Positions 582 through 27,518 of a stretch of DNA of 64,000 bases are shown here, one piece after another. The notes below the pieces were generated by a model, which saw nothing but the letters and a program-made list of their open reading frames with translations, did not search any database and was not told the DNA's origin. The stretch is from Emticicia sp. CRIBPO (GTDB lineage: Bacteria > Bacteroidota > Bacteroidia > Cytophagales > Spirosomataceae): contig NZ_JAAAKV010000012.1 in NCBI RefSeq assembly GCF_009905725.1, forward strand, positions 62,001 to 126,000, given 5' to 3'. Each line of letters opens with the position of its first letter. Positions within the stretch are counted from its first letter, which is position 1. Both the position numbers and the translations under genes were made by a program.

Positions 582-2147
582 TTAATAATTTGGATTTTGC
601 TTAAGGTTAGGATTATTATCCACCTCACTCTGCGGGATCGGCATGCTGTGTGACTTCCCTACTATAAAATTATTGAAGTCGCTGTCGCGGACTTTCAGCT
701 GATCTATTGAAGCCTGGTCATTTAAACCCCAGCGTTTCAGGTCAATCCAGCGGACACATTCCAGGCTCAGCTCCAACCCTCTTTCGATTTTCAGGTGGTC
801 TCTGAATGTGTTTTTATTGCTGGCAATCTGGGCTCCGTTATAATAAGAACTGCTCTCCAGAGCTGGCAATTTTGCCCTTTGCCTTACGCGGTTCAGATAC
901 CCAATCGCTTTGGCAGTAGGGCCGCTTACTTCATTCAATGCTTCGGCATAAAGCAACAGCATGTCTGAGTACCGCAAAGACCTGAAGTTATTATCGTTCC
1001 AGTAAAAAAGAGGATTGGCGGGGGTACTGTATTTCTTAATAAATACCCTGTTGCCCCACTCTGCTCTCCATTTGTTTCCGTAAATCAGACTATCAGCCCT
1101 TTCCGGAAAATCCTTAGCCGAGTCATTGTACCAGACACTGTAGAAAAGACGGATGTCGTTTTTTCCCTCCACTGTTTTTTCCCGTTTGTAGTAATCCACC
1201 AGCCAGCGGCGGGCCTCCACGTTGTTCCAGCCTATCCCTGCCGGGGCCTGGTTCATTTCTATCTGCGAGCCCATCTGGGCATTAGGGTCACGGTAATTAT
1301 CCGTCTGGTCAAAACCTACGTTGTTGATCAGGGAAAACTGGATTTCGAAAAGCGACTCTTTGTTGTTTTCAGTCGTATTCCTGAAATTATCACCATAATC
1401 AGGCATCAGGTCATAATAGTTTTTGCCTTCACCGTCCACCAGCCATTCAAAACACTTGATCGCCTCCTCCCACTTGTGATGCTGCATATACACTTTGGCC
1501 AGCAGGGCATAAGCCGCCCCCTTGGTGGCACGTCCCTGGTCGGCCGCCGTCCTTGTGGCCGGGAGTTTGGCCACGGCGTCTTTCAGGTCTTCTTCCAGCT
1601 GCGTGAATATCTCGTCCGGCGTTTTTTGTGCGGGCATGTCAGAGGCCGAAGATGTTTTTAATACGAACGGAAGGTTATCCCACAGGGCCGTCAGATAGAA
1701 GTAGTAAAAAGACCTCAGGAACTTGGTCTGCCCTACCAGGTCTGCTTTACGGCTTTCGCTTGTAAATGTCACCTTGTCAACATTATCCAGCACCTGGTTG
1801 GCCCTGAAAATGGCCACATAATGCTCCTTCCAGATTTTGGTATTTACCTCTCCGAAGTTATAGTTGGTATAAATAAACTTCGAATACTCATTCAGCTCCG
1901 TCCATCCTGCCAGGCTGACGCCGTCATCAGCCATCCCATGCATTTGAGTATAGATATTACGGGTCCAGGTGCCTTGCCTGTAAAACATGTTGTATACCGA
2001 TACCACGCCACTTTCAATATCCGCTTCCGTTTTCCAGAAGTTCCCGGTAGAAATCGTATTCTCATTGTTGATATCCAGCACAGACTCATCACACGAAGCA
2101 AAGGTCAGGGAGAATACGCAAGTCAAAAAATAAATGTATTTTTTCAT
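582..2147 (-). CDS. SusD/RagB-family nutrient-binding outer-membrane lipoprotein
   Basis: A 521-residue protein, the usual length for SusD. The signal peptide ends with Cys19 (TFASC), expected to be lipidated and exported to the cell surface. Family marks are the N-terminal SusD-like segment (ISTGNFWKTEADIESGVVSVY), TPR-type helices in the middle (GAAYALLAKVYMQHHKWEEA) and the C-terminal RagB block (LRYSDMLLLYAEALNEV, then RGLELSLECVRWIDLKRWG). It caps the SusC barrel encoded immediately upstream, with a 13-base gap, and captures ligand for transport. With ribokinase and nucleoside hydrolase in the same operon, ribose or nucleosides are the likely ligands; that is inference from context. Confidence 0.95.
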   Translation of the reverse strand: MKKYIYFLTCVFSLTFASCDESVLDINNENTISTGNFWKTEADIESGVVSVYNMFYRQGTWTRNIYTQMHGMADDGVSLAGWTELNEYSKFIYTNYNFGEVNTKIWKEHYVAIFRANQVLDNVDKVTFTSESRKADLVGQTKFLRSFYYFYLTALWDNLPFVLKTSSASDMPAQKTPDEIFTQLEEDLKDAVAKLPATRTAADQGRATKGAAYALLAKVYMQHHKWEEAIKCFEWLVDGEGKNYYDLMPDYGDNFRNTTENNKESLFEIQFSLINNVGFDQTDNYRDPNAQMGSQIEMNQAPAGIGWNNVEARRWLVDYYKREKTVEGKNDIRLFYSVWYNDSAKDFPERADSLIYGNKWRAEWGNRVFIKKYSTPANPLFYWNDNNFRSLRYSDMLLLYAEALNEVSGPTAKAIGYLNRVRQRAKLPALESSSYYNGAQIASNKNTFRDHLKIERGLELSLECVRWIDLKRWGLNDQASIDQLKVRDSDFNNFIVGKSHSMPIPQSEVDNNPNLKQNPNY

Positions 2148-2160
2148 GATCTGATTAAAT

Positions 2161-5100: not shown

Positions 5101-5187
5101 AACGGTAAGCGAACATCCGAAGACGCATAACATAAGCACAAGGTTCCTCCACCTTGTTTTCTCTAAAAAAAACAACCCGTTTTTCAT
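2161..5187 (-). CDS. SusC/RagA-family TonB-dependent outer-membrane transporter
   Basis: A 1008-residue TonB-dependent receptor. A signal peptide ends near residue 31 (VLAQ). It is followed by the carboxypeptidase-regulatory-like domain typical of SusC (VSGTVTDMQGEPIVGASV), the SusC TonB/plug signature DEVVVIGYGTVKKKDLTGAV around residue 115, the plug (IRGLGSLTNNSPLFVVDG) and a long 22-strand barrel ending in an aromatic residue (SLAF). It forms the pore of a SusCD pair with the next gene. It is the fourth gene of the minus-strand operon, after ribokinase, nucleoside hydrolase and the sugar permease, 36 bases behind the permease. Energy comes from TonB-ExbBD, which is not encoded here. Confidence 0.96.
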   Translation of the reverse strand: MKNGLFFLEKTRWRNLVLMLCVFGCSLTVLAQRKVSGTVTDMQGEPIVGASVHEKGTANAAATDLEGKFTLNVASGAVLGVSYIGYVMQEVTVGNQTSLVIRLEQDNKTLDEVVVIGYGTVKKKDLTGAVSVIKSETLRDRNSQDIIGAMQGLTSGVKVTSSGLPGQQASIVIRGLGSLTNNSPLFVVDGMIGGEAHLNPADVESIQILKDASSAAIYGSRAANGVVIITTKNGKEGPMKVQLDANFTTTRLPQYDLMDAETWKRYDDMAYDEAIKRGVAGVVRRQNHYDANTDWQKEMLSTGILQNYNLSFSGGSKSGKYFVSLNRLEDKGALYNTGYDRYGFRVNTSGQKGIFSYGENISYTKTNRKNLNGNPWADFIAISPTIPVKDPANPGGYGYGNPDRANNYGRNLVAMQDLLSQKNPENILKANIFGQVSLFNALFAKLNFAYTNYSGVTNTLRKSGNWTMGQGSDAASIGVQNYRSDDVLIEQTLNYKKTISKHDIDLIGGVTYNTFNGESGWATKLNPLVVGDKYITSLDAATGNTTAGGGYQKAAILSYLGRINYAYADKYLLQVTTRRDGTSRLPSDTRWGTFTSFSLGWRISGEEFFDVPFINDLKLRANQGTLGNSSIGYWDYQAVINTAPRAVFGSPEHKVIGMTQSQLTNTDLVWERKTTTNIGLDAAMLNNRLTFTAEYFRSKSKDLLVYLPILMSSGNEGGNPAVNAGSLSNTGIEIETGWKDRVGKDFSYSASLNLSRIRNKVLDLGYGRVEYYEFLSKAQIGQPLGAFYLYKTLGVFQSEEEVKAHVNSKGKVIQPNALPGDLKYDDYNGDGIISSEDRQLVGSPWPKFEMGVSLGAAYKGFDLSMNGYGRFGQDVWNGAAAAAGDFANNQNNFNGIVPWTAANPVNDRPRVVFGDTRNSRGDQSRWLEKGSFFRFSQVALGYTLPAGISQKAGMERIRAGVTLQNLITITKYSGLDPEFRDSGIFTMGADNTSFPNPRSVMFSLSLAF

Positions 5188-5223
5188 ATATTTTTAATTT
5201 AAGGTTAATTCATAATCATAAAG

Positions 5224-6228
5224 TCAGTTAGATCCAGCGGCGATGATCAGCCCTATGCCGATGATAAAAAGTACGAACATCAGGAAAAGATAACGGCCTG
5301 TATCTTTGGGAGCATCCTTGAATTCCTTCCAGATAAATACCCCCCAGAAAGCCGAAACCAGTGTAGCCCCCTGCCCTAAACCGTAGGAAACGGCAGCTCC
5401 GGCCTTACCGGCAGCAATAAGGTTAAAAGCATTGCCAAGCCCCCAGATCAATCCCCCAAAAACACCCACCAGGTGAATGCTGAAACCTCCTTTGAAATAC
5501 TCGCCGTAGCTGACAGGTAATCCTTCGAAAGGGCGTTTCATCACCAGGGTATTAAAAATGAAGTTGCTGACGAAAATGCCTGTTGCAAAAATAAACATCG
5601 CCGTATAGGGCGTCATTTTACCTGCTGCCGGATCCACAAAATTGTCCAGGTCCATCGAAGCAGCCACAAAGCGATAGAAAAATGACATCAGAAAGCCGGC
5701 TCCTAACGAGAGTAAAAGTCCTTTTGATGACACTTTGCTGGCCTGTTTTGCCTGTTTGCTGTAAGCAATGGCGTTCAATATAATGGCCAGGGTGATGAGG
5801 GCAACACCCCCAAACAGGAGCGTCGGATTTCCTTTTTCCGAACCCATGTAGTTGATGATAACACCCAGAACCAGGGCAAGGCCGATACCTACCGGAAAAG
5901 CCACCGAAAGCCCGGCTATAGAAATGGCCGCTGCCAGGAGAATATTGGCGGCATTGAAAATCACCCCTCCCAGGAAAGCACTCTTTATGTTGTCCCACTC
6001 TGCCTGCTGCAGATCAGGGATAAAACTGCGGCCTGTTTCACCGAAACTTCCTAAGGTAAAAGCGGAGATAAGCGAAAACAGCAAAATGCCGATCACATAA
6101 TCCCAGTAGAATAGCTCATATCGCCACGACTTCCCGGCCAGCTTCTGGGTGTTGCCCCATGAACCCCAGCAAAGCATCGTGATAATGCAGAACAAAACGG
6201 CCAGTGAATAACTGTTGACTGTAAACAT
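5224..6228 (-). CDS. Inner-membrane sugar permease, GRP/RhaT-like (DMT superfamily)
   Basis: A 334-residue protein with about ten hydrophobic membrane segments across its whole length. The start (FCIITMLCWGSWGNTQKLAGKSWRYELFYWDYVIG) and the glycine-rich repeats (AFPVGIGLALVLGVIINY, AAVSYGLGQGATLVSAFWG) are typical of the glucose/ribose porter and rhamnose transporter branch of the drug/metabolite superfamily. It would carry the sugar released in the periplasm into the cytoplasm for the ribokinase. It lies between the nucleoside hydrolase (32-base gap) and susC. The analogous gene in Bacteroides ribose loci is the predicted ribose permease; the substrate here is inferred from its neighbours. 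Confidence 0.8.
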   Translation of the reverse strand: MFTVNSYSLAVLFCIITMLCWGSWGNTQKLAGKSWRYELFYWDYVIGILLFSLISAFTLGSFGETGRSFIPDLQQAEWDNIKSAFLGGVIFNAANILLAAAISIAGLSVAFPVGIGLALVLGVIINYMGSEKGNPTLLFGGVALITLAIILNAIAYSKQAKQASKVSSKGLLLSLGAGFLMSFFYRFVAASMDLDNFVDPAAGKMTPYTAMFIFATGIFVSNFIFNTLVMKRPFEGLPVSYGEYFKGGFSIHLVGVFGGLIWGLGNAFNLIAAGKAGAAVSYGLGQGATLVSAFWGVFIWKEFKDAPKDTGRYLFLMFVLFIIGIGLIIAAGSN

Positions 6229-6260
6229 AACACTCTGATTTTAATGGTTAGTAAATAGGA

Positions 6261-7298
6261 TTATCGTTTCCCGGGCTTTGCCGTAATCAGTTCGACGAAC
6301 CTCTCTTTCACGGTGTCGGCTTGCTTGCTGTCGAGTTCCAGGTACGCCTGCCTGCCTTTTCCATCGGAAGTAAAGGAAGTGAAGCCTTTGTCGTCTACGC
6401 GAATCTGCCCCCAGGGACTTATCGTGAAATATTCCGGAGAGTTTTCGACCACATACAGCAACGCGATCAGGTCCCAGGTCGGGCGGTCGTAGGGCATGTC
6501 GAGGTAATATTTGTAGGCTTCCACCACCGGATGGTGCTGCGTCCACTTAAAATCGTTCTCTATACTTTTTGCGGGATATTTCACGGCTATTCCGGCCTCA
6601 AAAGGAGTAAAAACAATGGGCGTAGGCCATTCGTTGACAATCAGCTGGGCTGCCGGGATGTCCTTGACGACGTTGTATTCGGCCAGCCTCTTCTCGCCGA
6701 AACTCCCGGCCATCATGGAAAGCATCTTTACTTTTTTAGCGATGAGCTCTTTTCCACTCAGTTTGGAGTATTTATCAGGAGGCGACTGCAAAAGTCTGAA
6801 AATGTTGGTAGAAAAACCCACAGAAACGATGGTCACCGAGTTGTCCGGCTGTTTCGACAAAATCCGGCGGTATAAAGCGACGGCTTCAGGAACGGCCTCA
6901 TAATTAAACTTCGGTCTTTTAAACAACTCTTTCCCTTTATCGTCCTTCATCAGGCTGACATGCTCCGCATATTTCCGGGCGTCGTTTTCGCTGTCAATCC
7001 CGTTTACGACTTTAGCGACAGGAACTTTCGGATAACCGTACCAGTGATTCATCAGGTGTACATATTCCGTGGAATACCGGCTTTGTTTATTGGATGATAC
7101 TGCCAGAAGCTTTATTTTACCGGCATCCAGGTATTTATAGATCATATCCAGGGCCAGGGCGTCATCCACATCATTCCCGATATCAGTCTCGAAAATAATG
7201 GTCGGTACCTGTCCGGTGCGGGTGCTGCCCTTCTGGCCAAACACCTGACTACCTCCCAAAAACAACAGCAGTGTAACAAAAATGATAGAATTTTTCAT
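6261..7298 (-). CDS. Exported nucleoside hydrolase (IUNH family)
   Basis: A 345-residue protein. The N-terminal signal peptide (MKNSIIFVTLLLFLGGSQVFGQ) predicts export to the periplasm. The active-site calcium-binding motif appears as ETDIGNDVDDALAL near residue 37, a variant of the family DTDPGxDDAxA. Later family landmarks include TIVSVGFSTNIFRLLQ, MAGSF, and a histidine-containing HHPVVEAYKYYLDMPYDRPTWDLIALLYVV near the C-terminus. It splits ribonucleosides into free base and ribose. Placement between ribokinase (30-base gap) and the permease makes a short pathway: nucleoside to ribose outside the cytoplasm, uptake, then phosphorylation. Base specificity cannot be read from sequence alone. 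Confidence 0.9.
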   Translation of the reverse strand: MKNSIIFVTLLLFLGGSQVFGQKGSTRTGQVPTIIFETDIGNDVDDALALDMIYKYLDAGKIKLLAVSSNKQSRYSTEYVHLMNHWYGYPKVPVAKVVNGIDSENDARKYAEHVSLMKDDKGKELFKRPKFNYEAVPEAVALYRRILSKQPDNSVTIVSVGFSTNIFRLLQSPPDKYSKLSGKELIAKKVKMLSMMAGSFGEKRLAEYNVVKDIPAAQLIVNEWPTPIVFTPFEAGIAVKYPAKSIENDFKWTQHHPVVEAYKYYLDMPYDRPTWDLIALLYVVENSPEYFTISPWGQIRVDDKGFTSFTSDGKGRQAYLELDSKQADTVKERFVELITAKPGKR

Positions 7299-7328
7299 AC
7301 GTATTAATAATTAAGGTTGAATCAGATT

Positions 7329-8228
7329 TTATACTATTTCGCGTCGATAAGGTATGGCGGCCTGTGCCCCCATCCTGGTCACGGTAATGGCCGAAGCCTT
7401 GCAGGCCAGTTTAACCGCCTCAACAATATCCCGGCCTTCTGACAGACCCACACACAGGGTACCGCAGAAAGTATCACCTGCCGCCGTGGTATCCATCGCC
7501 GCTACGCTCTCGGCTTCCACTTCATGGTATTGATTGCCGTCTTTGATGAGAGCTCCCAGTGAGCCCAGGGTGATCACCACTACCTCCACGCCCTTTTCGC
7601 TGATTCTGTCGGCCGCTTTCCTGGCTGACTCCCAGTCTGTCACCCTCACTCCCGAAAGGATTTCGGCCTCGTTTTTATTGGGGGTGATGACATACAGGCG
7701 TTTCAGCAGTTCATTCGGGAGGGTCTGGGCAGGTGCCGGATTCAGCACCACTTTTACCTGGTTTAAAGCGGCAATTTCAGCGGCATATTCTACGGTTTCC
7801 ATCGGTATTTCCAGTTGCATCAGCAGGATATCTGCCTTCTCAATTTCTTCTCTTGACTTCTCAATGTCCTTTACGGTAAGGTAAGCATTGGCTCCGGGAG
7901 CCACGAGAATACAGTTTTCACCATTGGCATCCACCGAAATCAAGGCCACTCCCGAGGGATGGTCCGAATCAGAAAAAACATGCTCTGTGCCAATGTCTTC
8001 AGACTTATATAATTCGATGGATTGTCTGCCGAAAAGATCATTGCCTGTTTTGGTAATAAAAGAAACCTTTCCCCCCATCCGGGCCACGGCTACTGCCTGA
8101 TTTGCCCCTTTACCTCCCGGATTCATCATAAACTGGTGGCCGATGATCGTTTCTCCTGGAACCGGCAACCTGTCTGCCTTGATCACCATATCCGTGTTAG
8201 AACTTCCTATTACAACTATTTTCTTCAC
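7329..8228 (-). CDS. rbsK: Ribokinase
   Basis: A 299-residue PfkB-family kinase, the standard ribokinase length, and cytoplasmic. It has the N-terminal GSSNTDMVIKADRLPVPGET segment, the first PfkB signature MNPGGKGANQAVAVARMGG (residues about 35-53) and the second signature with catalytic Asp, AMDTTAAGDTFCG (about 245-257). It converts ribose to ribose 5-phosphate with ATP. It is the promoter-proximal gene of the minus-strand SusCD operon, which strongly suggests ribose is the sugar the operon collects. A -7 box sits 38 bases upstream. Confidence 0.95.
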   Translation of the reverse strand: MKKIVVIGSSNTDMVIKADRLPVPGETIIGHQFMMNPGGKGANQAVAVARMGGKVSFITKTGNDLFGRQSIELYKSEDIGTEHVFSDSDHPSGVALISVDANGENCILVAPGANAYLTVKDIEKSREEIEKADILLMQLEIPMETVEYAAEIAALNQVKVVLNPAPAQTLPNELLKRLYVITPNKNEAEILSGVRVTDWESARKAADRISEKGVEVVVITLGSLGALIKDGNQYHEVEAESVAAMDTTAAGDTFCGTLCVGLSEGRDIVEAVKLACKASAITVTRMGAQAAIPYRREIV

Positions 8229-17444: not shown

Positions 17445-17452
17445 TATCTTTG
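17445..17452 (+). promoter_or_regulatory. -7 promoter box of the flippase gene
   Basis: TATCTTTG is a perfect -7 box just after the maeB terminator and 25 bases before the ATG at 17477. An in-frame ATG at 17450 lies inside the box, so it is not a credible start. Confidence 0.6.
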
Positions 17453-17476
17453 ACCCCAATTCAATTTTTCTCCTGG

Positions 17477-19003
17477 ATGAGCATTATCAAAAAACAATCT
17501 ATTCTTAATACTGTTTTTTCGTACATGGGTGTCGCCATCGGCACACTTACTCAGGGTTTTCTGATCCCAAGCTATTTCACACCGGCAGAAAACGGGCTTC
17601 TGGGGCTTTTAATGGCCTATATGTTCATCTTCTGTCAGCTTGCCAGTTTAGGGTTTAATTCTGCGGGGGTTAAATACTTCCCCTTTTTTAAAAATCCTTC
17701 CAACGGGCACAATGGCTTTCTATTTAACGGAATGGTCATCAACCTGGCGGGTTTCGCGGCTGCTACTATAATTTTCATCGTTTTTAAGGACTGGATCATC
17801 TCCAGCAGTGGCGTTGACCTTCCCGGAAAAAAGGCAGACACCGAGCTTTTTGGCAATTACTATTCTTTTATCCTGCCTATTGCGTTTGCGACACTGGTAT
17901 TCAATCTATTTGACAACTACGCCAAAAATCTTTATGATACCGTCTGGGGAAGTTTTCTAAGCCAGTTTCTCCAAAGATTCCTCGTCCTGATTGCTGTCCT
18001 GCTGATCATATTTGCCTGGGTGGAATTTAATGAATTCATCTACTACTGGGTAGCAGCCATCTCGATACCCAGTATCTTCATGGTTTACAGAAGTTATCAG
18101 CTGGGTCATTTTTCTTTGCGATACAACCCCCTCTTTTTTGAATCGACCAGTTTCAGAAATCAGTTTTTCAGATTTGCAGGCTACAGTGCCATCACAGGCA
18201 TGTCGACCATCATTATTTCCCAGATCGACCGGATCATGGTATATAAGCTGCTCGGCATGAGTCAAAGCGGTATTTATGGATTTTGTCTGTTATTCGGCAG
18301 CGTGATGGCCATGTCCTATATGGCGGTGATCAAAGCCTCCTCTGCCATAGTGGTCGATGCCATTGACAAACAGGAATATTTCAGGATTGAATCCATTTAC
18401 AAAAAAAGCAGTGTCTTTCTGTTTACGTTCGGTTTCGGAATCCTGATCATCGTGTGGGTGAATATCGACAATATTTATTCTTTTATAAAACCGGAATATG
18501 CCCTGGGCAAAACCGCCCTGATCCTGATCGGCGTCGGTAAACTTTTCGATTTAGTCAACAGCATTAACGGGCTCATTCTCAGCAACTCCAAATACTACAA
18601 AATTGATTCAGCCATCATCATCAGCTTTATTTTGATCCTGTACCTGTTTAATAAGCTGCTGATCCCGGAATATGGCATGAACGGAGCCGCCTTCGCCACC
18701 ATTTTAGCGATTGTTTATTATAACGGACTGAGGACTTTCCTGGTCTGGAAGTTTTTCGGCATTCATCCTTTCAGCTCTGAACAAATCAAAATACTGGCCA
18801 TCGGAATCCTTGTTCTTCTGGCAGGCTTACAGATCCCTGTGATGCACGGACATGTGCTGATCAGACTTGCAGATGTCTGTATAAAATCAGGCGTAATCCT
18901 GGCTGTATTTTCAGGTATTCTTATCTACTTCAGAATCTCGAAAGACCTGAACGAAACCTTTGATTCAGGACTGCAATCAGTGAAGAAACTCCTGGGTAAA
19001 TAA
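17477..19003 (+). CDS. Polysaccharide flippase, Wzx/MATE-like (MVF superfamily)
   Basis: About 508 residues from MSIIKKQSILNTVFSYMGVAIG, with 12-14 membrane helices over the full length. The opening helix and the GLLGLLMAYMFIFCQLASLGFNSAGVKYFP segment are typical of oligosaccharide flippases that move undecaprenyl-linked sugars across the inner membrane. Mid-protein, ISQIDRIMVYKLLGMSQSGIYGF is the conserved charge-bearing stretch of Wzx-like proteins. The gene runs toward the legionaminic-acid operon and its 3' end overlaps the last gene of that operon by 27 bases on the opposite strand. It probably exports a glycan built with nonulosonic acid, which is inference from context. Confidence 0.85.
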   Translation: MSIIKKQSILNTVFSYMGVAIGTLTQGFLIPSYFTPAENGLLGLLMAYMFIFCQLASLGFNSAGVKYFPFFKNPSNGHNGFLFNGMVINLAGFAAATIIFIVFKDWIISSSGVDLPGKKADTELFGNYYSFILPIAFATLVFNLFDNYAKNLYDTVWGSFLSQFLQRFLVLIAVLLIIFAWVEFNEFIYYWVAAISIPSIFMVYRSYQLGHFSLRYNPLFFESTSFRNQFFRFAGYSAITGMSTIIISQIDRIMVYKLLGMSQSGIYGFCLLFGSVMAMSYMAVIKASSAIVVDAIDKQEYFRIESIYKKSSVFLFTFGFGILIIVWVNIDNIYSFIKPEYALGKTALILIGVGKLFDLVNSINGLILSNSKYYKIDSAIIISFILILYLFNKLLIPEYGMNGAAFATILAIVYYNGLRTFLVWKFFGIHPFSSEQIKILAIGILVLLAGLQIPVMHGHVLIRLADVCIKSGVILAVFSGILIYFRISKDLNETFDSGLQSVKKLLGK

Positions 19004-19669
19004 AAATTCGGCAAAAGCCCAGTCCCGAGGGGTGTCCAGATCAACGGAATATTCCGGCTCCATAACATATTTCCTGATCTTCTGGAAAGAAGCAAATCCG
19101 GGGTATTCAAAGAAAGCACCCACCCGTATCACATAAATGGAGCCGTTGTAGGCGTAGACCTCAGGAGCATCCTGCCGTCTGGTGATCCCTTCTGTTTTTT
19201 TGGAGACCTGCAGAAACCCTTCTTTATCTTCCTCAAAAAGGTTAAAATACGGGTTATTTTTGGATAAACTTACCGACACCACCATGTCCAGATCGTCCGA
19301 CATTTCAGCCATAGCTTCTTCCAGGTGTCTCCTTTCCCTGAAGGGGGAAGTGGGTTGAAGTAAAACAAGCTTTTTCCATTCTTTGCCCGGCTGGTGATGC
19401 TCCAGAGCATGCATCAGCACCTCATAGGTGCCTGAATGGTCAGAAGCCAGCTGGCCCGGACGGATAAAATTGACCGGAACACCACATGCTTCCGCCACTT
19501 CGACGATGTCCGTGCTGTCAGTAGAGACACATATCTGGCTGGCCGGCACAAACTGCAGGGCATAATCAATCGAATACTGAATCAGGGGCTTACCGTTAAG
19601 CAGTTTGATGTTCTTTCCGGGAATGCCCTTGGAGCCTCCGCGGGCCGGTATCACAAATAATGTATCCAT
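18977..19669 (-). CDS. legF: CMP-nonulosonate cytidylyltransferase (CMP-legionaminic acid synthase, LegF/NeuA-like)
   Basis: A 230-residue enzyme of the usual length for NeuA-type synthetases. The N-terminal nucleotide-binding motif IPARGGSKGIPGKNIKLL is present, followed by PLIQYSIDYAL, a second catalytic region CVSTDSTDIVEVAEACG, QPTSPFRERRHLEEAM and NGSIYVIRVGAFFE. It activates the nonulosonic acid with CTP to give the CMP sugar used by transferases. It is the last gene of the eight-gene operon and shares one base with the preceding guanylyltransferase gene (TAATG-type junction). Legionaminic rather than sialic acid is inferred from legB, legC and the PtmE-like gene beside it. Its 3' end overlaps the convergent flippase gene by 27 bases. 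Confidence 0.85.
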   Translation of the reverse strand: MDTLFVIPARGGSKGIPGKNIKLLNGKPLIQYSIDYALQFVPASQICVSTDSTDIVEVAEACGVPVNFIRPGQLASDHSGTYEVLMHALEHHQPGKEWKKLVLLQPTSPFRERRHLEEAMAEMSDDLDMVVSVSLSKNNPYFNLFEEDKEGFLQVSKKTEGITRRQDAPEVYAYNGSIYVIRVGAFFEYPGFASFQKIRKYVMEPEYSVDLDTPRDWAFAEFLFTQEFLH

Positions 19670-20727
19670 CAGAATCTCAGGTGTTTAATATCTTCCTGTG
19701 CCCTGTAAAAGTCCTCAGGCTTACCGATATCCAGCCAATAACCACGAATGGCGTCTGAAATGATCTTATGTCCACCTTCCAGCAGTTTATCCATAAACTC
19801 TGTGGCATCGTATTTTTCATTTTCAGGAATCTGGTCAATCAGTTCCTTTTTGAAGATGTAAATCCCTCCGTTGGAATAAAACACATACTTGGGTTTTTCC
19901 TTAAAACTGGTCACCCGCTTGTCTTCATCCAGCTCCAGCACCGCGTAAGGAATATTGACAGGATAAGGAATGCTGGCCACGGCCAGATCGGCGTCCTGCT
20001 CTATAAAACTATCAAAAAAGCTTTCGATATCTATGTTGGTCAGCAAGTCGGAGTTCATCAGCAGCAGGTGCTTGTTTGACAAACCTTCAATCTTCCTGGC
20101 CGGTCCGATCGTTCCCATCGGGAAATCCTCCCCGATGTACTGTATATTGACATTAAACCGGCTGCCATCTCCCAGGAACTCCCTGATCTGGTCTCCGAGG
20201 TAATTGACTGAAATAAAAATCTCCTTGATGCCGAAACTGGAAAGCAACTCAATATTGTACTGGATAATAGGTTTATCCCCTACTTTAAGCAAAGGCTTCG
20301 GTGTGGTCAGTGTAAGCGGTCGCAGACGTTCCCCTTTTCCACCGGCCATCAGCAGGGCCGACAACGGCACCACCGACTTCAGAAAATGATTGTCAATAAC
20401 ATCTACCAGCTCCCTGTCAGCATTAAGTACCGGCACAAAACGTATATTGAGGTCTTTCAACTTCCTCAGTTCGGCCCGGTTAAACTCGCCTTCTGGCACA
20501 TATCTGAATTCTTTCCTGATAAACTCCTGTACGTTATCGTCTATGTTCTTGCCGCTCAATAGTCCGCGGCGGATATCCCCGTCAGACAATGAACCCACTA
20601 TTTTACTGTTTTCATCCACTACAAACAACACCGGGGCGGTAATGCCCGCACTGTTACTGTCCAGCATTTTGAGGGCATCCCTGCCTGTCGCGGCAGCGGG
20701 TAACACAAACTTCAGAAATTGCTTCAT
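19669..20727 (-). CDS. ptmE: CBS-domain nucleotidyltransferase, PtmE-like (glucosamine-1-phosphate guanylyltransferase)
   Basis: A 352-residue two-part protein. Residues about 1-115 form a CBS pair (APVLFVVDENSKIVGSLSDGDIRRGLL and IRFVPVLNADRELVDVID). The rest is a sugar-phosphate nucleotidyltransferase with ALLMAGGKGERLRPLTLTTPKPLLKVGDKPIIQYNIELL, the metal-binding LLMNSDLLTNI and a final YWLDIGKPEDFYRAQEDI. The same layout occurs in Campylobacter PtmE, which makes GDP-glucosamine for the GDP-linked legionaminic-acid route. Base specificity (GTP versus UTP or CTP) cannot be read directly and is inferred from the operon. It overlaps the epimerase gene upstream by 4 bases and the cytidylyltransferase gene by 1. 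Confidence 0.75.
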   Translation of the reverse strand: MKQFLKFVLPAAATGRDALKMLDSNSAGITAPVLFVVDENSKIVGSLSDGDIRRGLLSGKNIDDNVQEFIRKEFRYVPEGEFNRAELRKLKDLNIRFVPVLNADRELVDVIDNHFLKSVVPLSALLMAGGKGERLRPLTLTTPKPLLKVGDKPIIQYNIELLSSFGIKEIFISVNYLGDQIREFLGDGSRFNVNIQYIGEDFPMGTIGPARKIEGLSNKHLLLMNSDLLTNIDIESFFDSFIEQDADLAVASIPYPVNIPYAVLELDEDKRVTSFKEKPKYVFYSNGGIYIFKKELIDQIPENEKYDATEFMDKLLEGGHKIISDAIRGYWLDIGKPEDFYRAQEDIKHLRF

Positions 20728-21881
20728 TTTAAATCGTAAAATTTTTTCCTGAGACTTACCTTTTCAGGCAAGTCCATGATGACCTTCATCATCTGTTCTG
20801 CGGCGTTTCCGTCTCCGTAAATATTCTTAACCTCTCCGCATTTTTCTTTAAATTCATCCGAAACCGCCAGCCTGATTCCTTCCACCACGGCTTCAAAAGA
20901 AGAACCCGTATGAATGATACTCTCAGCTCCGAGCCTGCCTTTCTGCCGGTCACCGATGTTCACCGTCGGTACCTGGAACGACGGTACTTCAATAATACCG
21001 CTTGATGAATTACCGATCACAGCCGCAGCGTGTCTGATAGCCGACAAATACCTCAGTTGCCCAAGACTGGCTACTACTTTTACCCTTTCCGGCTGGTTCC
21101 TCTCATATTCTTTAAAAATACCGATCATTTTCCTTCCGTTGGCATCAGCATTAGGGAGGGTGATCAATATTTTATAATCCGTAAATACATCCAGTGCTTT
21201 CAAAAAATCACCCAGCAGGGTTTCAACATCACCGTCTCCCAGTGTTTCAGGATGATAAGTCACCAGGAAGAATTTATCCGTCAGCTTGAATCCTACAGAA
21301 GTTTCCAGTTCTTCAAGACTTTGCAAGGCAATGCTTTTGATGTTGTCAATGCTCAGTGAGCCGAAATTGTGCACCATTTCAGGAGATTCGCCCAGCTGTA
21401 TCACCCGGTTTTTATAGGCTTCCGTAGTTACAAAATGGAGATAGGACATCTTGGTGATAGAATGCCTGAAGGCATCATCCAGGGCTCCTTCGGTGCTATC
21501 GCCTCCTGAAATATGAATGACCGGAATACCCGACATAAAAGCAGCCCCTGCCGCTGCAAAGGCCTCAAACCGGTCACCCAGGATCACCACATAATCTGGT
21601 TTCAGGCGGTCAAATGAGTCGGCATAGGATATAAATCCAAGTCCTGTAGACTTCGCCATTCCCACGCCGGAGTCTGACGCCAGCAACATATCCACTTTCT
21701 CACTGATCTCAAAACCATCTGCTTCAATGGCCTGGTAGGTTTCGCCGAACTCCACCAACAAATGTGTTCCTGAAACAAGCAGCTGTAACTTTACGGCAGG
21801 CTCTGCCCGCAATGCCTTCAGCAATGGCAGCAGAATGCCGTATTCAGCCCTCGTTCCGGTAAAAACACAAATTTTCTTCAT
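20724..21881 (-). CDS. legG: Hydrolysing nucleotide-HexNAc 2-epimerase (LegG/NeuC-like)
   Basis: A 385-residue GT-B-fold enzyme. Landmarks are FTGTRAEYGILLPLLKAL at the N-terminus, VVILGDRFEAFAAAGAAF, IPVIHISGGDSTEGALDDAFRHSITKMSYLHF (the hydrolysing-epimerase signature with the His of the active site), YHPETLGDG and the C-terminal nucleotide site IGNSSSGIIEVPSFQVPTVNIGDRQKGR. It releases the nucleotide and inverts C2, giving the mannose-configured 2,4-diacetamido hexose that LegI condenses with phosphoenolpyruvate. In a GDP route the donor would be GDP-bound. It has four-base overlaps with genes on both sides, so it is translated together with them. Confidence 0.85.
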   Translation of the reverse strand: MKKICVFTGTRAEYGILLPLLKALRAEPAVKLQLLVSGTHLLVEFGETYQAIEADGFEISEKVDMLLASDSGVGMAKSTGLGFISYADSFDRLKPDYVVILGDRFEAFAAAGAAFMSGIPVIHISGGDSTEGALDDAFRHSITKMSYLHFVTTEAYKNRVIQLGESPEMVHNFGSLSIDNIKSIALQSLEELETSVGFKLTDKFFLVTYHPETLGDGDVETLLGDFLKALDVFTDYKILITLPNADANGRKMIGIFKEYERNQPERVKVVASLGQLRYLSAIRHAAAVIGNSSSGIIEVPSFQVPTVNIGDRQKGRLGAESIIHTGSSFEAVVEGIRLAVSDEFKEKCGEVKNIYGDGNAAEQMMKVIMDLPEKVSLRKKFYDLK

Positions 21882-22885
21882 ATCTCTATTTTCTCATCTT
21901 CTGCAAAATCCCTTTCCGCCACTTTCCCGGTCACCTCAAGCCACCTCATCGGGTTGATGCCGTCTCCCGGTCTTTTGGTCGTCAGATTCTCATCACTGAA
22001 AACCTCTCCTTTTTCTATTCTGCGGGAAGCGACAATGCTCTTTCTTGCAATATCCTTATTTTTTGCTTCTGATTCGGTTACTTTTTTTTCTCCTGAGCCC
22101 AAAGCCACCTCAATGTTCCGGATAGTTCTGACCATTTCAGTCAGTTCACCGGGTTCAAGCGAGGCCTTGTGGTCAGGCCCTTCCATGTCTTTATCCAGCG
22201 TAAAATGCTTCTCAATCACCTCCGCTCCCAGTGCCACTGCGGCTATCGGTACCTCAATGCCCAGCGTATGATCCGAGTACCCTGTTTTTACGTCAAAAAC
22301 TGAGCCTATCTGCAGCATGGCTTTCAGGTTAACATCCCTCATGGGCGTCGGGTACTCTGTGTTGCAATGCAAAACCGTAATCGTTTCCTTCGTCTGACCA
22401 CTGCTTAGTAACACATCCAGGGCTTCCCCGATTTCTTCCAGGCTGGCCATCCCGGTAGAGATGATGATGTCCTCAAAACTCTCCGCCATCTTTTTCAGAT
22501 AGGGTCGGTTGGTAATGTCTCCGGAAGGGACTTTCCCTGTTTTGATACCCAAAGAAACCAATAAATCTATACTTTCCAAATCAAACGGCGTCGAAAGGAA
22601 CCTGATTTTCTGCTGATTGGCGTAGGCTATCAGTTCAAGATGCTGCTCATGCGAAAGCTCCAGTTTTTTGAGCATTTCAAACTGGGTTTCATCATTGAAA
22701 GCATTCTTTTTCTGGTATTCCGCTTTCTCAGCTTTTTTTGAAACCAGTTTATCCGCTTTAAAAGTCTGAAACTTAATGTAATCCACACCTGCCACCACTG
22801 CCGCATCAATGAGCTTGCGGGCGTTGTCCATACTCCCGTTGTGATTGACACCTGCCTCAGCGATGATTAAAACCTTCTTCTCCAT
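21878..22885 (-). CDS. legI: N,N'-diacetyllegionaminate synthase (NeuB family)
   Basis: A 335-residue enzyme, typical NeuB length. The TIM barrel begins LIIAEAGVNHNGSMDNARKLIDAA and continues with VDYIKFQTFKADKLVSKKA, FLSTPFDLESIDLL, VPSGDITNRPYLKKMA, IISTGMASLEEI, VLHCNTEYPTP, GYSDHTLG and EKHFTLDKDMEGPDHKASLEPGEL. The C-terminal 60 residues form the SAF antifreeze-like domain (ARKSIVASRRIEKGEVFSDENL). It condenses the epimerised diacetamido sugar with phosphoenolpyruvate to make the nine-carbon acid. The choice of legionaminic over neuraminic acid rests on the neighbouring dehydratase and aminotransferase. Confidence 0.88.
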   Translation of the reverse strand: MEKKVLIIAEAGVNHNGSMDNARKLIDAAVVAGVDYIKFQTFKADKLVSKKAEKAEYQKKNAFNDETQFEMLKKLELSHEQHLELIAYANQQKIRFLSTPFDLESIDLLVSLGIKTGKVPSGDITNRPYLKKMAESFEDIIISTGMASLEEIGEALDVLLSSGQTKETITVLHCNTEYPTPMRDVNLKAMLQIGSVFDVKTGYSDHTLGIEVPIAAVALGAEVIEKHFTLDKDMEGPDHKASLEPGELTEMVRTIRNIEVALGSGEKKVTESEAKNKDIARKSIVASRRIEKGEVFSDENLTTKRPGDGINPMRWLEVTGKVAERDFAEDEKIEI

Positions 22886-23517
22886 TATTTATTCATTAAA
22901 ACTGCCGGATTACCGGCATACACTCCCTCATATTCCGTATTTCTGACCACCACTGCCCCAGCTCCGGCCACTGTTTTCTCAGCAATAACTATCCCCTGCC
23001 TGATGACCGCTCCGGAACCGATAAAACAATTATCTTCAACGACACAATCCCCGTTGATAATACTTCCGGTCGAGATATGACAATGATTGCCGATAACTAC
23101 ATCATGTTCAACAAGGGCTTTTGTGTTGATAATCCCGTTGACGCCAATGCTGACCCCGGCATTCACAAAAACACCGTGCATCAGTATAGTGCCTTCACCC
23201 ACAGAAGCATATTCAGAAACATAGGCCGTTGAGGCTTTTACCACAGCAAATTCACCATAACAGGCTTTCACCTTTTCAAACAGTTTGCGTCTGATGCCGC
23301 TGTTTTTTATCTGGCCCACAGTAATCAGGAAACAATGTCCATCAGCTGCCAGAGCCTCAATCATATCATCATCACCGATCACGGGGTATCCGAGCACATT
23401 GCCCGCCACCAGGGCTCCGTCCAGTATCCCGGCAATCTCATAGAGGCCCTGGGAATGGATGACCTCAATGCAGGATTTGCAATGCCCGCCGCCGCCGATC
23501 AGTATTATTTTTTTCAT
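22885..23517 (-). CDS. legH: NeuD/PglD-family acyltransferase (probable LegH)
   Basis: A 210-residue protein with two parts. The N-terminal Rossmann-like half starts KKIILIGGGGHCKSCIEVI and includes VIGDDDMIEAL. The C-terminal left-handed beta helix is built of hexapeptide repeats (residues about 95-205: VGEGTILMHGVFVNAGVSIG, VIGNHCHISTGSIINGD). The conserved catalytic His is in LVEHDVVIGNHCHI. In Campylobacter and Legionella the homologous protein N-acetylates the 4-amino group made by the aminotransferase, which is the step missing here if this gene did something else. It overlaps legC by 4 bases and legI by 1. Confidence 0.78.
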   Translation of the reverse strand: MKKIILIGGGGHCKSCIEVIHSQGLYEIAGILDGALVAGNVLGYPVIGDDDMIEALAADGHCFLITVGQIKNSGIRRKLFEKVKACYGEFAVVKASTAYVSEYASVGEGTILMHGVFVNAGVSIGVNGIINTKALVEHDVVIGNHCHISTGSIINGDCVVEDNCFIGSGAVIRQGIVIAEKTVAGAGAVVVRNTEYEGVYAGNPAVLMNK

Positions 23518-24656
23518 CCTTTTTTGTGATAAAAGTCCTTTATAAGGTTTGTCACCGTCATGATTTCATCGTCAGTAATAGAAGTTGAACACGGCAGACT
23601 GATACACGAACCATATACTTTATCAGACACATTTTCCTTCGTAAAATACAGCTGATCCCTGAACATCGGCAGCTGGTTCATCGGCACCCAGAAAGGCCTG
23701 GCCTGCACGCCGGCGGCAATCAGGTAATTGAGCAGGTCCCTTTGCTGAGGAAAAGTAGCTGTGTAAAGCCAGTGGTTGGCCTCCACATGTTCGCCCATCT
23801 TCTGGGCAGCTACACCTTCCAATCCGGAGAGCTGGTCATTGTATAATTTGCTGATCTCATGTTTTCTGTTGACAAACCCGGGCAATTGCTCCATCTGGGC
23901 CACACCCATAGCTGCCAGTATATTGACAAGGCGGTAGTTATAACCGATCTCGTCATGATAATATTCAAGTGGATCGGCTTTGGCCTGGGTAGTCAGGTGC
24001 TTGGCCTTTTTGCCCAGCACATCGTCATTCGTCACGACCATTCCTCCGCCGCCTGTACTGATGATCTTGTTGCCGTTAAAACTGAAAGTACCCAGCAACC
24101 CGAAGGTTCCGGCACTTTTACCTTTATAGAAAGAACCCAGAGCCTCGGTTGAATCTTCCACGATGTTCAGACCGTATTCTGAAGCCAGCTCCGTCAGCCT
24201 GTCCATGTCACACATATTGCCCAAAACATGCACGGGCATAATGGTCCTGATGGTCCTTCCTGAAGCTTTATGAATACACTGCCCATCAACGACCGCCGTT
24301 TGTTCCGATAGAAATTCTTCCAGCAAATCAAGGTCCATCTGCCAGGTATCGCCTTTGACATCCATCAGAACCGGGTCTGCTCCGCAATACGTAATGGCGT
24401 TGACCGAAGCTATAAAAGTAATGTTCGGCACAATCACCAGGTCATTTCTGACCACCCCGGCCAGCATCAGCGAAATGTGCAGAGCAGAGGTACCATTCGA
24501 AATAGCGATCGCGTATTTAGCTCCCGAATACTCTGCAATCATTTCCTCAAACCTGTTCACATAAGAACCTACCGAAGACACCCAATTGGTATCCAGGCAG
24601 TCTTTGATGTACTTCCATTCATTTCCGTCCAGGTTGGGTACTGATAATGGTATCAT
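23514..24656 (-). CDS. legC: PLP-dependent sugar 4-aminotransferase (LegC, DegT/DnrJ/EryC1 family)
   Basis: A 380-residue aminotransferase. It opens MIPLSVPNLDGNEWKYIKDCLDTNWVSSVG, as LegC proteins do. It carries YAIAISNGTSALHISLMLAGV for cofactor phosphate binding, IMPVHVLGNMCDMDRL, IVEDSTEALGSFYKGKSAG, and SFNGNKIISTGGGGMVVTND, where the lysine near residue 184 should hold pyridoxal phosphate. It puts an amino group on C4 of the 4-keto-6-deoxy sugar nucleotide from LegB. The gap from legB is 5 bases, and it overlaps the acyltransferase gene by 4 bases. Confidence 0.87.
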   Translation of the reverse strand: MIPLSVPNLDGNEWKYIKDCLDTNWVSSVGSYVNRFEEMIAEYSGAKYAIAISNGTSALHISLMLAGVVRNDLVIVPNITFIASVNAITYCGADPVLMDVKGDTWQMDLDLLEEFLSEQTAVVDGQCIHKASGRTIRTIMPVHVLGNMCDMDRLTELASEYGLNIVEDSTEALGSFYKGKSAGTFGLLGTFSFNGNKIISTGGGGMVVTNDDVLGKKAKHLTTQAKADPLEYYHDEIGYNYRLVNILAAMGVAQMEQLPGFVNRKHEISKLYNDQLSGLEGVAAQKMGEHVEANHWLYTATFPQQRDLLNYLIAAGVQARPFWVPMNQLPMFRDQLYFTKENVSDKVYGSCISLPCSTSITDDEIMTVTNLIKDFYHKKG

Positions 24657-24661
24657 TGTGC

Positions 24662-25660
24662 TTATATATTGTAAATGTCTGCTTTGTATTGTTTCAGATT
24701 TTCCTTGTTTTCAAACCAGGCTATCGTTTCAGCCAATCCTGAAGTCAGTGAATAATCCGGCTGCCAGCTGGTCAGCTCTTTTATTTTGATATTGCTGCCG
24801 AAAAGGCGTTCCACTTCACTCTTGCCGGGTCTCAGACGCTCTTCATCGGTAATGACTTTTGCCGCCGGGTTGATCAGGTTGATGATGTTCTGAGCTAAAT
24901 CGCCAATGCTGATTTCTTCCATCATCGCAATATTGACCTCCTCTCCGATCGTCTTCTCCGACTTCGCAATTTCGAGAAAACCTTTTACCGTATCTTTCAC
25001 AAAAAGCAAGTCCCTCGTCGGGTGAACCGCTCCCAGTTTGATCTCCGTTTTGCCGTTAAGCAGCTGGGTAATGATGGTCGGGATTACCGCACGGGCCGAC
25101 TGTCTAGGTCCATAAGTGTTAAACGGTCTGACGATCGTAACCGGGAGATCAAAGCTCCTGAAAAACGAATCAGCCAGGGCATCTGCCCCTATTTTGGTAG
25201 CTGAATAAGGCGACTGGCCTTGTTTCGGATGGTTTTCGTCGATTGGGACGTATCTGGCTGTACCGTAGACTTCTGAGGTAGAAGTCACCAAAATCCTTTC
25301 GGTTTTCAATTCTTTGGCCGCCTGCAGCACATTCAGTGTTCCAGTCACGTTGGTGTCAACATAAGATCCCGGCGAATGATAGCTGTAAGGAATCGCGATC
25401 AGGGCCCCCAGGTGAAAAACGACATCGATGCCTTCCATGGCTTTCCTGATACCAAAAGGGTCTCTGACATCGCCTGAAAATATCTCTATTTTTTCCTTGA
25501 CTTCAGGAGCCAGCGTATCCAGCCATCCCCACGAATTAAACGAGTTATAGTACACAAATGCTTTTACAAGGCACCCTTCTGCCAATAACCTTTCCGTCAG
25601 GTGGCTGCCGATAAACCCGTCAGCACCGGTAACCAATACTTTTTTATCCTTTAAATTCAT
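24662..25660 (-). CDS. legB: NAD-dependent sugar-nucleotide 4,6-dehydratase (LegB)
   Basis: A 332-residue extended short-chain dehydrogenase. The dinucleotide motif is KVLVTGADGFIGSHLTERLL. The active-site pieces are TSTSEVYGTARYVP and PYSATKIGADALADSF (YxxxK), followed by VRPFNTYGPRQSARAVIPTI and HPTRDLLFVKDTVKGF. The sequence fits the LegB branch, which removes water from GDP- or UDP-GlcNAc with retention at C5, rather than the PseB branch that inverts C5. It is the first committed step of the pathway in this operon. Its start overlaps the end of the upstream GT42/DUF115-like gene by 17 bases. Confidence 0.88.
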   Translation of the reverse strand: MNLKDKKVLVTGADGFIGSHLTERLLAEGCLVKAFVYYNSFNSWGWLDTLAPEVKEKIEIFSGDVRDPFGIRKAMEGIDVVFHLGALIAIPYSYHSPGSYVDTNVTGTLNVLQAAKELKTERILVTSTSEVYGTARYVPIDENHPKQGQSPYSATKIGADALADSFFRSFDLPVTIVRPFNTYGPRQSARAVIPTIITQLLNGKTEIKLGAVHPTRDLLFVKDTVKGFLEIAKSEKTIGEEVNIAMMEEISIGDLAQNIINLINPAAKVITDEERLRPGKSEVERLFGSNIKIKELTSWQPDYSLTSGLAETIAWFENKENLKQYKADIYNI

Positions 25661-26513
25661 TTTCCAATTTTACTTTTCTGAATACGTCTATATAACTTTT
25701 GCTGCTGGAATTAATAATCAACACTTTACGGTACGCCGCATAACGGGCGATGATCTCATAACTTCTGTACACCTTGTGCAGGTTCAGAAAGGCATTTTTC
25801 AGATACGACCCGGCGGTATACAAAAACATCCCGGAAATATCTTTGGCCTGTGTTTCATAAAAATGGGTATCATACACCCTCAGTTCATTGTTTTCGTTCA
25901 GCCTGATGTCTTCATGCCAGGTATGATCGGCCCCCAGCAATATAATCCTCTCATAGGCTTTCCTGACACATAAAAACACCGTGGCGTTCAAAACGTTCTG
26001 GCACTGCGGCATGGCTATGCCACGATCAAACAACCAGAATTTCAAACCTTCAAATCCTTCAAAAATCGTATAATTGAAGTAATATATCCTGATATTTGAA
26101 TTGGTGATATTTCTGAAACGCTCCTTTTTCCTGAACCTGACCGGGACATACAATTTCAAAGGCCATTGGGTCTTTTCTACGATGTTTTTAACCGATAAAC
26201 TGGCCCCGGCATGGTTTTCATCGGCAAAAGCATCGTCCAGCATGATATAATTTTCAGGTTGCAACTGCTCATACAAAGGCGAATTACTGAACATATTGAC
26301 ACAAACCAACTCTACCTGTTCTCTTATCCTGATCAATTCCGGCAGGTCGGTGTTCAGCGAAGGCCCGTTTCCTAAAATAACCGCTGTTTCCTTTTTATTT
26401 CCGGAGTTTGTATTGCCTGTCGGCCTGGACAGCACCAGGATCTTCGCAAACGACAGGGCCGAATTAAACAAATCAAGTACAAAATCTGTAAACTTTAAGA
26501 CAAGGTCATGCAT
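25644..26513 (-). CDS. GT42/DUF115 (Maf)-like candidate nonulosonic acid transferase
   Basis: A 289-residue cytoplasmic protein, not matched to a named enzyme with certainty. Residues 44-53 read AVILGNGPSL and 69-75 LVCVNMF. These mirror the CMP-sugar binding pieces IIAGNGPSL and FRCNQF of Campylobacter Cst-II sialyltransferase (Asn9, Asn31), and also the core of flagellin-modifying Maf/DUF115 proteins. Farther on, LNATVFLCVRKAYERIILLG followed by ADHTW parallels the Cst-II strand-helix before its active site, and a THFYE His could be the base. It is the first gene of the legionaminic operon, so transfer of CMP-legionaminic acid is a natural guess. An alternative is another DUF115 phosphokinase-like role. 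Confidence 0.6.
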   Translation of the reverse strand: MHDLVLKFTDFVLDLFNSALSFAKILVLSRPTGNTNSGNKKETAVILGNGPSLNTDLPELIRIREQVELVCVNMFSNSPLYEQLQPENYIMLDDAFADENHAGASLSVKNIVEKTQWPLKLYVPVRFRKKERFRNITNSNIRIYYFNYTIFEGFEGLKFWLFDRGIAMPQCQNVLNATVFLCVRKAYERIILLGADHTWHEDIRLNENNELRVYDTHFYETQAKDISGMFLYTAGSYLKNAFLNLHKVYRSYEIIARYAAYRKVLIINSSSKSYIDVFRKVKLENEFKG

Positions 26514-26587: not shown

Positions 26588-26710
26588 ATACATTAAGATT
26601 TGTTACATTTATATCCTCCGAACAAATTGTTAAAACAGGCGTTCAGGGCACTCAAAACAGCATTTGAACACAAACGTCCGTCCGGCTGACGGCATATGGG
26701 ATAATTCCCT

Positions 26711-26718
26711 TAAATTTG
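26711..26718 (+). promoter_or_regulatory. -7 promoter box of the GT2 gene
   Basis: TAAATTTG is a perfect -7 match, 41 bases before the ATG at 26760. It lies inside the longer reading frame that starts at 26664, which favours the shorter protein. Confidence 0.45.
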
Positions 26719-26759
26719 TCACCGGAAAAGCAAGCCATTACCTTAACAATACGTCAGAA

Positions 26760-27518
26760 ATGCCTTCATTATCGATCATTACCATTACTTATAACGCGGA
26801 GAAGTACCTGGAAAGGACCATTCAGAGCATCATATCCCAGACTTCTGATGATTATGAATACCTGGTGATTGACGGAGGTTCCAAAGACGGCACCCTGGCC
26901 ATTGCCGAAAAATACAAAACACACATTGACCGCATTATTTCTGAAAAAGACGAGGGCCTGTATGATGCCATGAACAAAGGCATGGCTCTTGCCACCGGTG
27001 ATTTTGTATGGTTTATGAATGCCGGCGACGAAATAGCCCGCCCCGATGTAATCAAAAGAATACTGGAGGGCATCAACCCTGAAACGGATGTCATTTACGG
27101 CGATACTTTTTTTGTCAATGAGCAAGGCAAAATCCGGGGGCTGAGATCGGCCATCACCCCTCATAAACTCCCGCAGAACCTCCACTGGAAGAACATGAGG
27201 CTGGGTATGCTGGTTTGTCACCAGTCGTTTATCGCCCGCAGAAGCGTGGCACCGCCATTTCTGACTGATAACCTGAGTGCCGATATCGATTGGGAAATCA
27301 AGTGCCTGAAAAATGCAAGAGAAGCCTTTTTCTTTGACGGGGTCATTGCCAGATACCTGGAAGGCGGCATTTCGAACAAACATTTAAAGAAATCACTGGC
27401 CGACAGATTCATCGTTCTGAAAAACCATTTCGGCTTATTGGGAACGCTATGGGCACATGTTCAGATCGCTTTCCGCGGAATTAAACTGATCGTTTCGAAC
27501 AAAGGAAAATATTGGTAG
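26760..27518 (+). CDS. Family 2 glycosyltransferase
   Basis: About 252 residues from MPSLSIITITYNAEKYLERT. It is a GT-A fold with the opening strand SIITITYNA, nucleotide-binding DYEYLVIDGGSKDGTLAIAEKY, a DEGLYDAMNKGMALATGDFVWFMNAGDE segment that includes the DxD-equivalent, and a later DIDWEIKCL. This subgroup is common in capsule, exopolysaccharide and protein glycan loci. It is divergent from the legionaminic operon and probably adds a hexose in the same glycan. The upstream in-frame ATG at 26664 would add 32 residues unlike GT2 N-termini and would cover a promoter box, so 26760 is preferred. Confidence 0.88.
   Translation: MPSLSIITITYNAEKYLERTIQSIISQTSDDYEYLVIDGGSKDGTLAIAEKYKTHIDRIISEKDEGLYDAMNKGMALATGDFVWFMNAGDEIARPDVIKRILEGINPETDVIYGDTFFVNEQGKIRGLRSAITPHKLPQNLHWKNMRLGMLVCHQSFIARRSVAPPFLTDNLSADIDWEIKCLKNAREAFFFDGVIARYLEGGISNKHLKKSLADRFIVLKNHFGLLGTLWAHVQIAFRGIKLIVSNKGKYW

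Follow-up and report, generated by a model that had tools for sequence, protein, structure and literature searches.

The window, that is, the whole stretch of 64,000 nucleotides from Emticicia sp. CRIBPO that was analysed, carries a legionaminic acid (Leg) operon, whose genes are listed in Table 1. As described in an earlier reading made without database searches (hereafter the sequence-only reading), the operon is headed by an open reading frame (ORF) that encodes GNGPSL and VCVN motifs. That reading gave no strand; the ORF was found to lie on the minus strand, to start with ATG and to encode a protein of 289 amino acids, in which CVN occupies residues 71-73, and the plus-strand reading of the same interval is interrupted by stops. 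The gene is present as a single copy in the genome of about 6.06 Mb, and its final 17 nucleotides (25644-25660) are shared with the start of the LegB gene. Behind it follow, in this order, the genes for LegB, LegC, a NeuD-type acetyltransferase, LegI/NeuB, LegG/NeuC, a CBS-nucleotidyltransferase that we take to be PtmE-like, and a CMP-nonulosonate synthetase.

Table 1. The putative transferase gene, its predicted elements and its neighbours (positions in the window).
Feature	Position	Strand	Basis
Predicted CMP-nonulosonate transferase (for legionaminic acid here); 289 aa with a single MptE-like/DUF115 domain	25644..26513	-	sequence, profile and fold searches
Helix at the N-terminus (codons 2-28), amphipathic to hydrophobic, by which the protein may attach to the membrane	26430..26510	-	model DSSP, hydropathy, moment
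Codons 48-53, GNGPSL loop following strand 1; N49 corresponds to N9 of chain 1ro7 (Cst-II)	26355..26372	-	profile alignment
Codons 70-73, VCVN closing strand 2; N73 corresponds to N31 of chain 1ro7 (Cst-II)	26295..26306	-	profile alignment
Codons 194-201, GADHTWHE; D196 corresponds to the Asp of Cst-II GIDFY	25911..25934	-	profile alignment, conservation
Codons 217-219, HFY; H217 kept in 75/77	25857..25865	-	conservation
LegB, NAD-dependent 4,6-dehydratase; 17 nt overlap with the transferase gene	24662..25660	-	TIGR04180, 504.7 bits (cut-off 475)
LegC family aminotransferase	23514..24656	-	TIGR04181, 477.4 bits (cut-off 420)
NeuD-type (LegH) acetyltransferase	22885..23517	-	TIGR03570, 194.4 bits (cut-off 160.8)
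LegI/NeuB nonulosonate synthase	21878..22885	-	TIGR03569, 501.5 bits (cut-off 399.65)
LegG/NeuC 2-epimerase	20724..21881	-	TIGR03568, 451.8 bits (cut-off 235.9)
CBS plus nucleotidyltransferase	19669..20727	-	PF00571 and PF00483
LegF/NeuA-type CMP-nonulosonate synthetase	18977..19669	-	PF02348; PseF model 152.6 bits, under cut-off 205.7
Putative Wzx-type flippase, assigned from its homologues beside the relatives of the transferase gene; converges on the operon end	17450..19003	+	
GT2 glycosyltransferase, diverging from the operon head; recurrent partner	26664..27518	+	PF00535

One genome scan returned 109 relatives of the protein, the best 80 of which were kept as a set of loci; these 80 come mostly from Bacteroidota, with some from Ignavibacteriota and Pseudomonadota. 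The flippase-like gene of the window itself gave no Pfam or NCBIfam match. Homologues of it are present in 37/80 relatives' loci (best 80 of 109), the one in locus L061 exceeding the PF01943 cut-off and the one in L025 falling just under it. A homologue of the GT2 gene, whose product perhaps adds the acceptor sugar, lies upstream and divergent in 19/80 loci (again the best 80 of 109). In a scan that reached position 27518, this divergent GT2 was the sole other glycosyltransferase domain near the operon. None of the 11 ORFs of at least 200 amino acids at 0.6-17.4 kb (flippase excluded) contains such a domain; they encode SusD, TonB-receptor, nucleoside hydrolase, kinase, permease, symporter, malic enzyme and other proteins, and one is without a match. 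At 582-8228 of the window, the genes for SusD, a TonB-receptor, a ureide-permease-type transporter, a nucleoside hydrolase and a PfkB kinase lie on one strand, which looks like a nucleoside uptake locus.

The predicted transferase matches the Pfam family PF01973 (MptE-like, DUF115) with 37.9 bits against a cut-off of 34.6, and this is its single Pfam match at E <= 1; NCBIfam gave no match for the 289-residue protein. The protein is therefore a member of a named Pfam family, and the word "undescribed", as used in the sequence-only reading, fits only its function and its subfamily. For the family alignment, 76 of the 80 relatives were combined with the window protein (n = 77; four loci were left out). 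All 77 aligned members match PF01973 at E <= 1, and the residues N49, G50, P51, V72, N73, Y89, W117, N147 and G153, as well as G194, D196, H200, F218, N268 and D276 in the C-terminal part, are invariant in 77/77. In the 222 genomes of the bacterial-family set, the PF01973 model matched in 33 genomes vs 67 that carry the protein. Since the model passes over many relatives, it was used for the distant branch only (see below). The gene is present in 4/296 genomes of the phylum set, its own included, which is too few for a test, and a plasmid search gave no match to the protein.

The Pfam model for the GT42 sialyltransferases, PF06002 (CST-I), was not matched by the window protein at E <= 1 and does not appear among the listed 25 of 29 families for the 77 members; in the 296 phylum genomes it gave no match over the cut-off and one under it. 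Membership of GT42 by Pfam was consequently rejected. The kinship with these enzymes emerged in profile searches. When a profile of the 77 members was compared with PDB sequences up to E 10, a single match was obtained, namely CstI (2p2v) with E 0.0037. A mixed profile of eight family members and 12 distant kin gave 13 PDB matches, the first nine being Cst/GT42-type sialyltransferase sequences: seven alpha-2,3/8-sialyltransferase chains (best E 2.6e-9), which, 1ro7 included, we take to be Cst-II; CstI (1.3e-7); and a lipooligosaccharide alpha-2,3-sialyltransferase (7.8e-5). Lower ranks were occupied by MptE (0.0013 and 0.014), Maf (5mu5; 0.13) and an unrelated protein (1.9). Additionally, the distant kin alone reached Cst-II at E 0.0026, and a profile comparison of the two branches gave a match at 99% probability. 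A sub-threshold match (E 0.21) to a PHROGs family described as alpha-2,3-sialyltransferase was set aside as evidence.

In the mixed-profile alignment with chain 1ro7, N49 lies over N9, N73 over N31 and D196 over the Asp of GIDFY, and the block gFkevyliGaDHs is aligned with GYKEIYLSGIDFY, in agreement with the earlier observation that a later strand-helix pair also lines up. The two motifs had been described as spaced like Asn9 and Asn31 of Cst-II; the profile does align both stretches, but the distance from N49 to N73 is 24 residues and that from N9 to N31 is 22, similar and not identical. The invariance of N49, G50, P51, V72, N73, G194, D196 and H200 in 77/77 argues that the motif match with Cst is more than chance. 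The order of the GNGPSL and Asn motifs, the strand-helix-GxD block and a significant profile match are thus shared with Cst-I and Cst-II. Unlike these enzymes, the window protein does not match the Pfam CST-I model and has D93 in place of the Asn of FFNP in CstI, as aligned with the 77-member profile. The catalytic residues of Cst-II are two Tyr and one His, for which the mixed-profile alignment offers no clear counterpart. The "GT42/DUF115 core" of the sequence-only reading stands with regard to PF01973 and to the Cst kinship, but not with regard to the Pfam GT42 model.

The AlphaFold model of the 289-residue protein has a pLDDT of 91.6 and a pTM of 0.90. In a Foldseek search against the PDB, the Maf structure 5mu5 ranked first with E 2.6e-6 and was the sole row below 0.001; it was followed by MptE (8sd5) and then by human ST8SiaIII and ST6GalNAc2, some of the sialyltransferase structures being CMP-bound. 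The query-normalised TM-scores of the Maf, MptE and sialyltransferase rows were 0.30-0.50, and these rows were interspersed with Rossmann dehydrogenases. The same leaders were obtained with a distant member of Pseudomonas kilonensis (model pLDDT 91.7), for which Maf had E 3.9e-5. The predicted fold is of the Maf/sialyltransferase type, but Cst-II, with which the sequence-only reading had proposed to compare it, was not among the 50 best Foldseek rows of either protein. Little was added by a search of a viral fold library, in which phage and giant-virus proteins of the MptE-like kind made up most of the matches.

The neighbourhoods of the best 80 of 109 relatives were then compared for nonulosonate genes. 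NeuB is encoded in the fetched stretch of 43/80 loci, and any of NeuB, NeuC, a CMP-synthetase or a PseG-type gene in 52/80; in the other 28 a nonulosonate marker gene is absent from the stretch, partly because of contig ends. This linkage is seen in several phyla. Where the locus lacks NeuB (37 cases), the search was extended to the genome in 36, L077 being left out, and NeuB was found in 35 of these genomes, the single exception being a metagenome bin (L051). At the level of genomes, NeuB is present in 22/22 carriers vs 41/77 non-carriers among 99 genomes, the own one included, kinship being ignored. In the 222 bacterial-family genomes, NeuB matches of at least 280 bits occur in 65/67 carriers vs 27/155 non-carriers (counted by hand, Fisher test, with genomes treated singly and kinship ignored). 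Of the two carriers without a strong NeuB, one rests on a partial match of marginal significance (E 8.9e-4) and the other has a genome that is 81% complete; six further weak matches among the 67 carriers (24-28% identity) each lie within 4 kb of NeuB. The co-occurrence with nonulosonate synthesis that the sequence-only reading had proposed to check is accordingly near-obligate.

The position of the gene is more variable than had been supposed. Its "fixed place" at the operon head did not hold: a LegB/PseB-type SDR gene follows it directly on the same strand in 23/80 loci (best 80 of 109), and elsewhere the gene is found at the operon tail, beside Wzx or apart from the operon. In five loci (L024, L027, L028, L029 and L055), copies located apart from nonulosonate genes have genes for a PIG-L deacetylase and for an M23/LysM peptidase in their vicinity (around 10000); in six others (L031, L032, L033, L036, L051 and L077), lone copies are flanked by the gene for a YfhO-like membrane protein on one side and a gene of the peptidyl-arginine-deiminase family on the other (around 10000).

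The donor is not the same throughout the family. The operon of L061 encodes PseB, PseC, PseF, PseG and PseI over the NCBIfam cut-offs and that of L049 encodes PseB, PseC and PseI, while LegB and NeuB exceed the cut-offs in L026; a PseG-type gene is present in 33/80 loci (best 80 of 109), the member in L061 being PseG over the cut-off. A specificity for Leg only was rejected on the basis of the pseudaminic (Pse) operons of L061 and L049. The protein had been called the obvious partner for CMP-legionaminic acid, which agrees with the Leg operon of the window but does not extend to the family, since relatives also stand at the head of Pse operons. Working Leg/Pse labels, assigned by ourselves from the identity of the NeuB/LegB in the locus or else from the NeuB score of the genome (signals are mixed for L088, and 4/77 rows are ambiguous), required 12 changes on the tree vs a shuffled mean of 20.1, and 0/200 shuffles were as low. 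The labels are thus more clustered than shuffled ones, which indicates that the donor type is partly inherited, and the supported branches force at least eight changes for Leg and at least 10 for Pse. In L078 (14946-16433), the PseG-type cluster includes a 496-residue member with a C-terminal GNAT domain, which looks like a PseG/PseH fusion.

The enzymes known to move Leg or Pse that were met in the literature consulted, namely Maf, TagB-type proteins and GT118, are few and belong to unlike families. The GT118 enzyme KpsS1 is reportedly a retaining pseudaminyltransferase that takes the nonulosonate from CMP, as is predicted here. PF04464, presumably the Pfam model that corresponds to TagB, is unmatched in this genome; at E <= 0.001 it was found in 1/67 carriers vs 25/155 non-carriers. 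This near-exclusivity of TagB-type proteins and the window gene is weak evidence, because the matches come from three genera only and 6/26 are under the cut-off. Moreover, TagB-type proteins were found in just 8/27 non-carriers with strong NeuB, so most of these must use some other transferase. According to PMC6388019 and PMC7439481, the Tannerella nonulosonate transferases GtfS/TFUB4_00887 (TagB-domain) perform the task predicted here in the same phylum, but GtfS has 445 amino acids and belongs to another family than the MptE-like protein of 289.

Taken together, the gene is real, conserved and interpretable, and it most likely encodes a stand-alone transferase of nonulosonates within the GT42/Maf/MptE clan. 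The analysis itself establishes the sequence family, the kinship with Cst enzymes, the predicted fold, the gene linkage and the co-occurrence, whereas the reaction, the catalytic residues, the lipid-linked acceptor and the membrane attachment are inferred. We have considerable confidence in a more specific reading, in which a single-domain cytoplasmic enzyme of the sialyltransferase/Maf/MptE clan, probably attached to the membrane, transfers the nonulosonate from its CMP form (here CMP-Leg) to a lipid-linked glycan that is still growing; flipping of this glycan and its display at the surface would follow. The operon would make CMP-Leg as the donor, and the GNGPS loop together with N73 would hold the CMP. 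As judged from conservation, H200 (invariant in 77/77) is a candidate catalytic residue and H217 (75/77) a second one; either could act as the base that takes the proton from the acceptor hydroxyl. The nonulosonate would thereby be put on the growing lipid-linked glycan, and the Leg-tipped product would be flipped by the Wzx-like protein for surface display. A possible destination is the Bacteroidota protein O-glycan, the outer part of which is thought to be built on a lipid carrier and then flipped, and which in Tannerella bears Pse or Leg (PMC12871550 and PMC6388019).

The lipid-linked acceptor has to be weighed against direct transfer of the nonulosonate onto a surface or S-layer protein, in the way Maf acts on flagellin. 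Maf is the closest solved fold, its central domain is PF01973 and it uses CMP-nonulosonate (the latter two as given in PMC11339370), the same donor that is predicted for the window protein. However, the sequence match to Maf is weak (5mu5, E 0.13), and the window protein, with one Pfam domain in 289 residues, consists of PF01973 alone, without the flanking domains of the three-domain Maf build; in accordance with the sequence-only reading, it is neither a clear Maf protein nor a known sialyltransferase. Flagellin, found in 4/14 control genomes, was matched in 0/59 genomes, the own one included, and was rejected as the acceptor, whereas Wzx-type genes are present in 42/80 loci (best 80 of 109). 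Direct transfer to protein is, in our opinion, unlikely.

It is also conceivable that the protein transfers another sugar of the same glycan and that a separate enzyme moves the nonulosonate, given that some copies lie apart from nonulosonate genes and that a GT2 gene also adjoins the operon. This we regard as very unlikely, as the sequence kin of the protein are CMP-sialic-acid enzymes, the family is linked to two kinds of CMP-nonulosonate synthesis and the TagB-type alternative (PF04464) is unmatched in the genome. The Pfam name itself suggests a pterin pyrophosphokinase, and the archaeal 6-hydroxymethylpterin pyrophosphokinase MptE shares the Pfam family and is the second-best fold match; but the window gene sits in a sugar-synthesis context, the nonulosonate linkage extends across several phyla and the Cst chains rank above MptE in the combined profile search. 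The pterin enzyme was rejected on gene context, and its probability is close to negligible.

The database name points to pterin chemistry, and the way in which it can steer interpretation is exemplified by a genome comparison that took an "MptE-like" protein to belong to folate metabolism (PMC12102941). If the preferred reading, a CMP-nonulosonate transferase acting on a lipid-linked glycan, is true, a set of proteins in Bacteroidota, Ignavibacteriota and Pseudomonadota becomes testable as compact, flagellin-independent CMP-nonulosonate transferases. In addition, the kinship of Maf/MptE with GT42, stated as a structural similarity in PMC11339370, now has statistical support at the level of sequence.

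MptE-like proteins over the Pfam cut-off were also found in 11 other bacterial-family genomes, 5/11 of which are without a NeuB match. The sequence-only reading had named frequent homologues in genomes that lack nonulosonate genes as a finding that would speak against its proposal; this is not the case for the subfamily, but is so in part for this distant branch. The neighbourhoods of 8/11 loci (L124-L131) were read, three of them from genomes without NeuB. A CMP-sugar-synthetase homologue is present in 8/8, Pfam-confirmed in two and with NCBIfam relatives under the cut-off in six, and a 2-hydroxyacid dehydrogenase is Pfam-confirmed in 7/8, the eighth being taken from the gene listing. This suggests that the wider MptE-like family goes with CMP-activated acids and not with NeuB as such. 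It is important to mention that 7/8 of these CMP-synthetases share 77-94% identity with one another's reference, so that the loci amount to about two independent cases. We therefore advance only tentatively, as a proposition more doubtful than probable, that the non-Maf bacterial MptE-like proteins are general transferases of CMP-activated 2-keto sugar acids, with GT42, Maf and MptE forming, by sequence, one family that comprises a Leg/Pse branch and a NeuB-independent branch acting on an undescribed acid. Two MptE-like copies are often present in the distant loci, and one locus, L126, contains an HpcH/HpaI aldolase.

A relative was also observed on a viral contig of 89 kb (IMGVR_UViG_3300014911_000002; L132, 244-5657); it is 26% identical, and homologues of NeuB and NeuA are encoded about 4 kb away.
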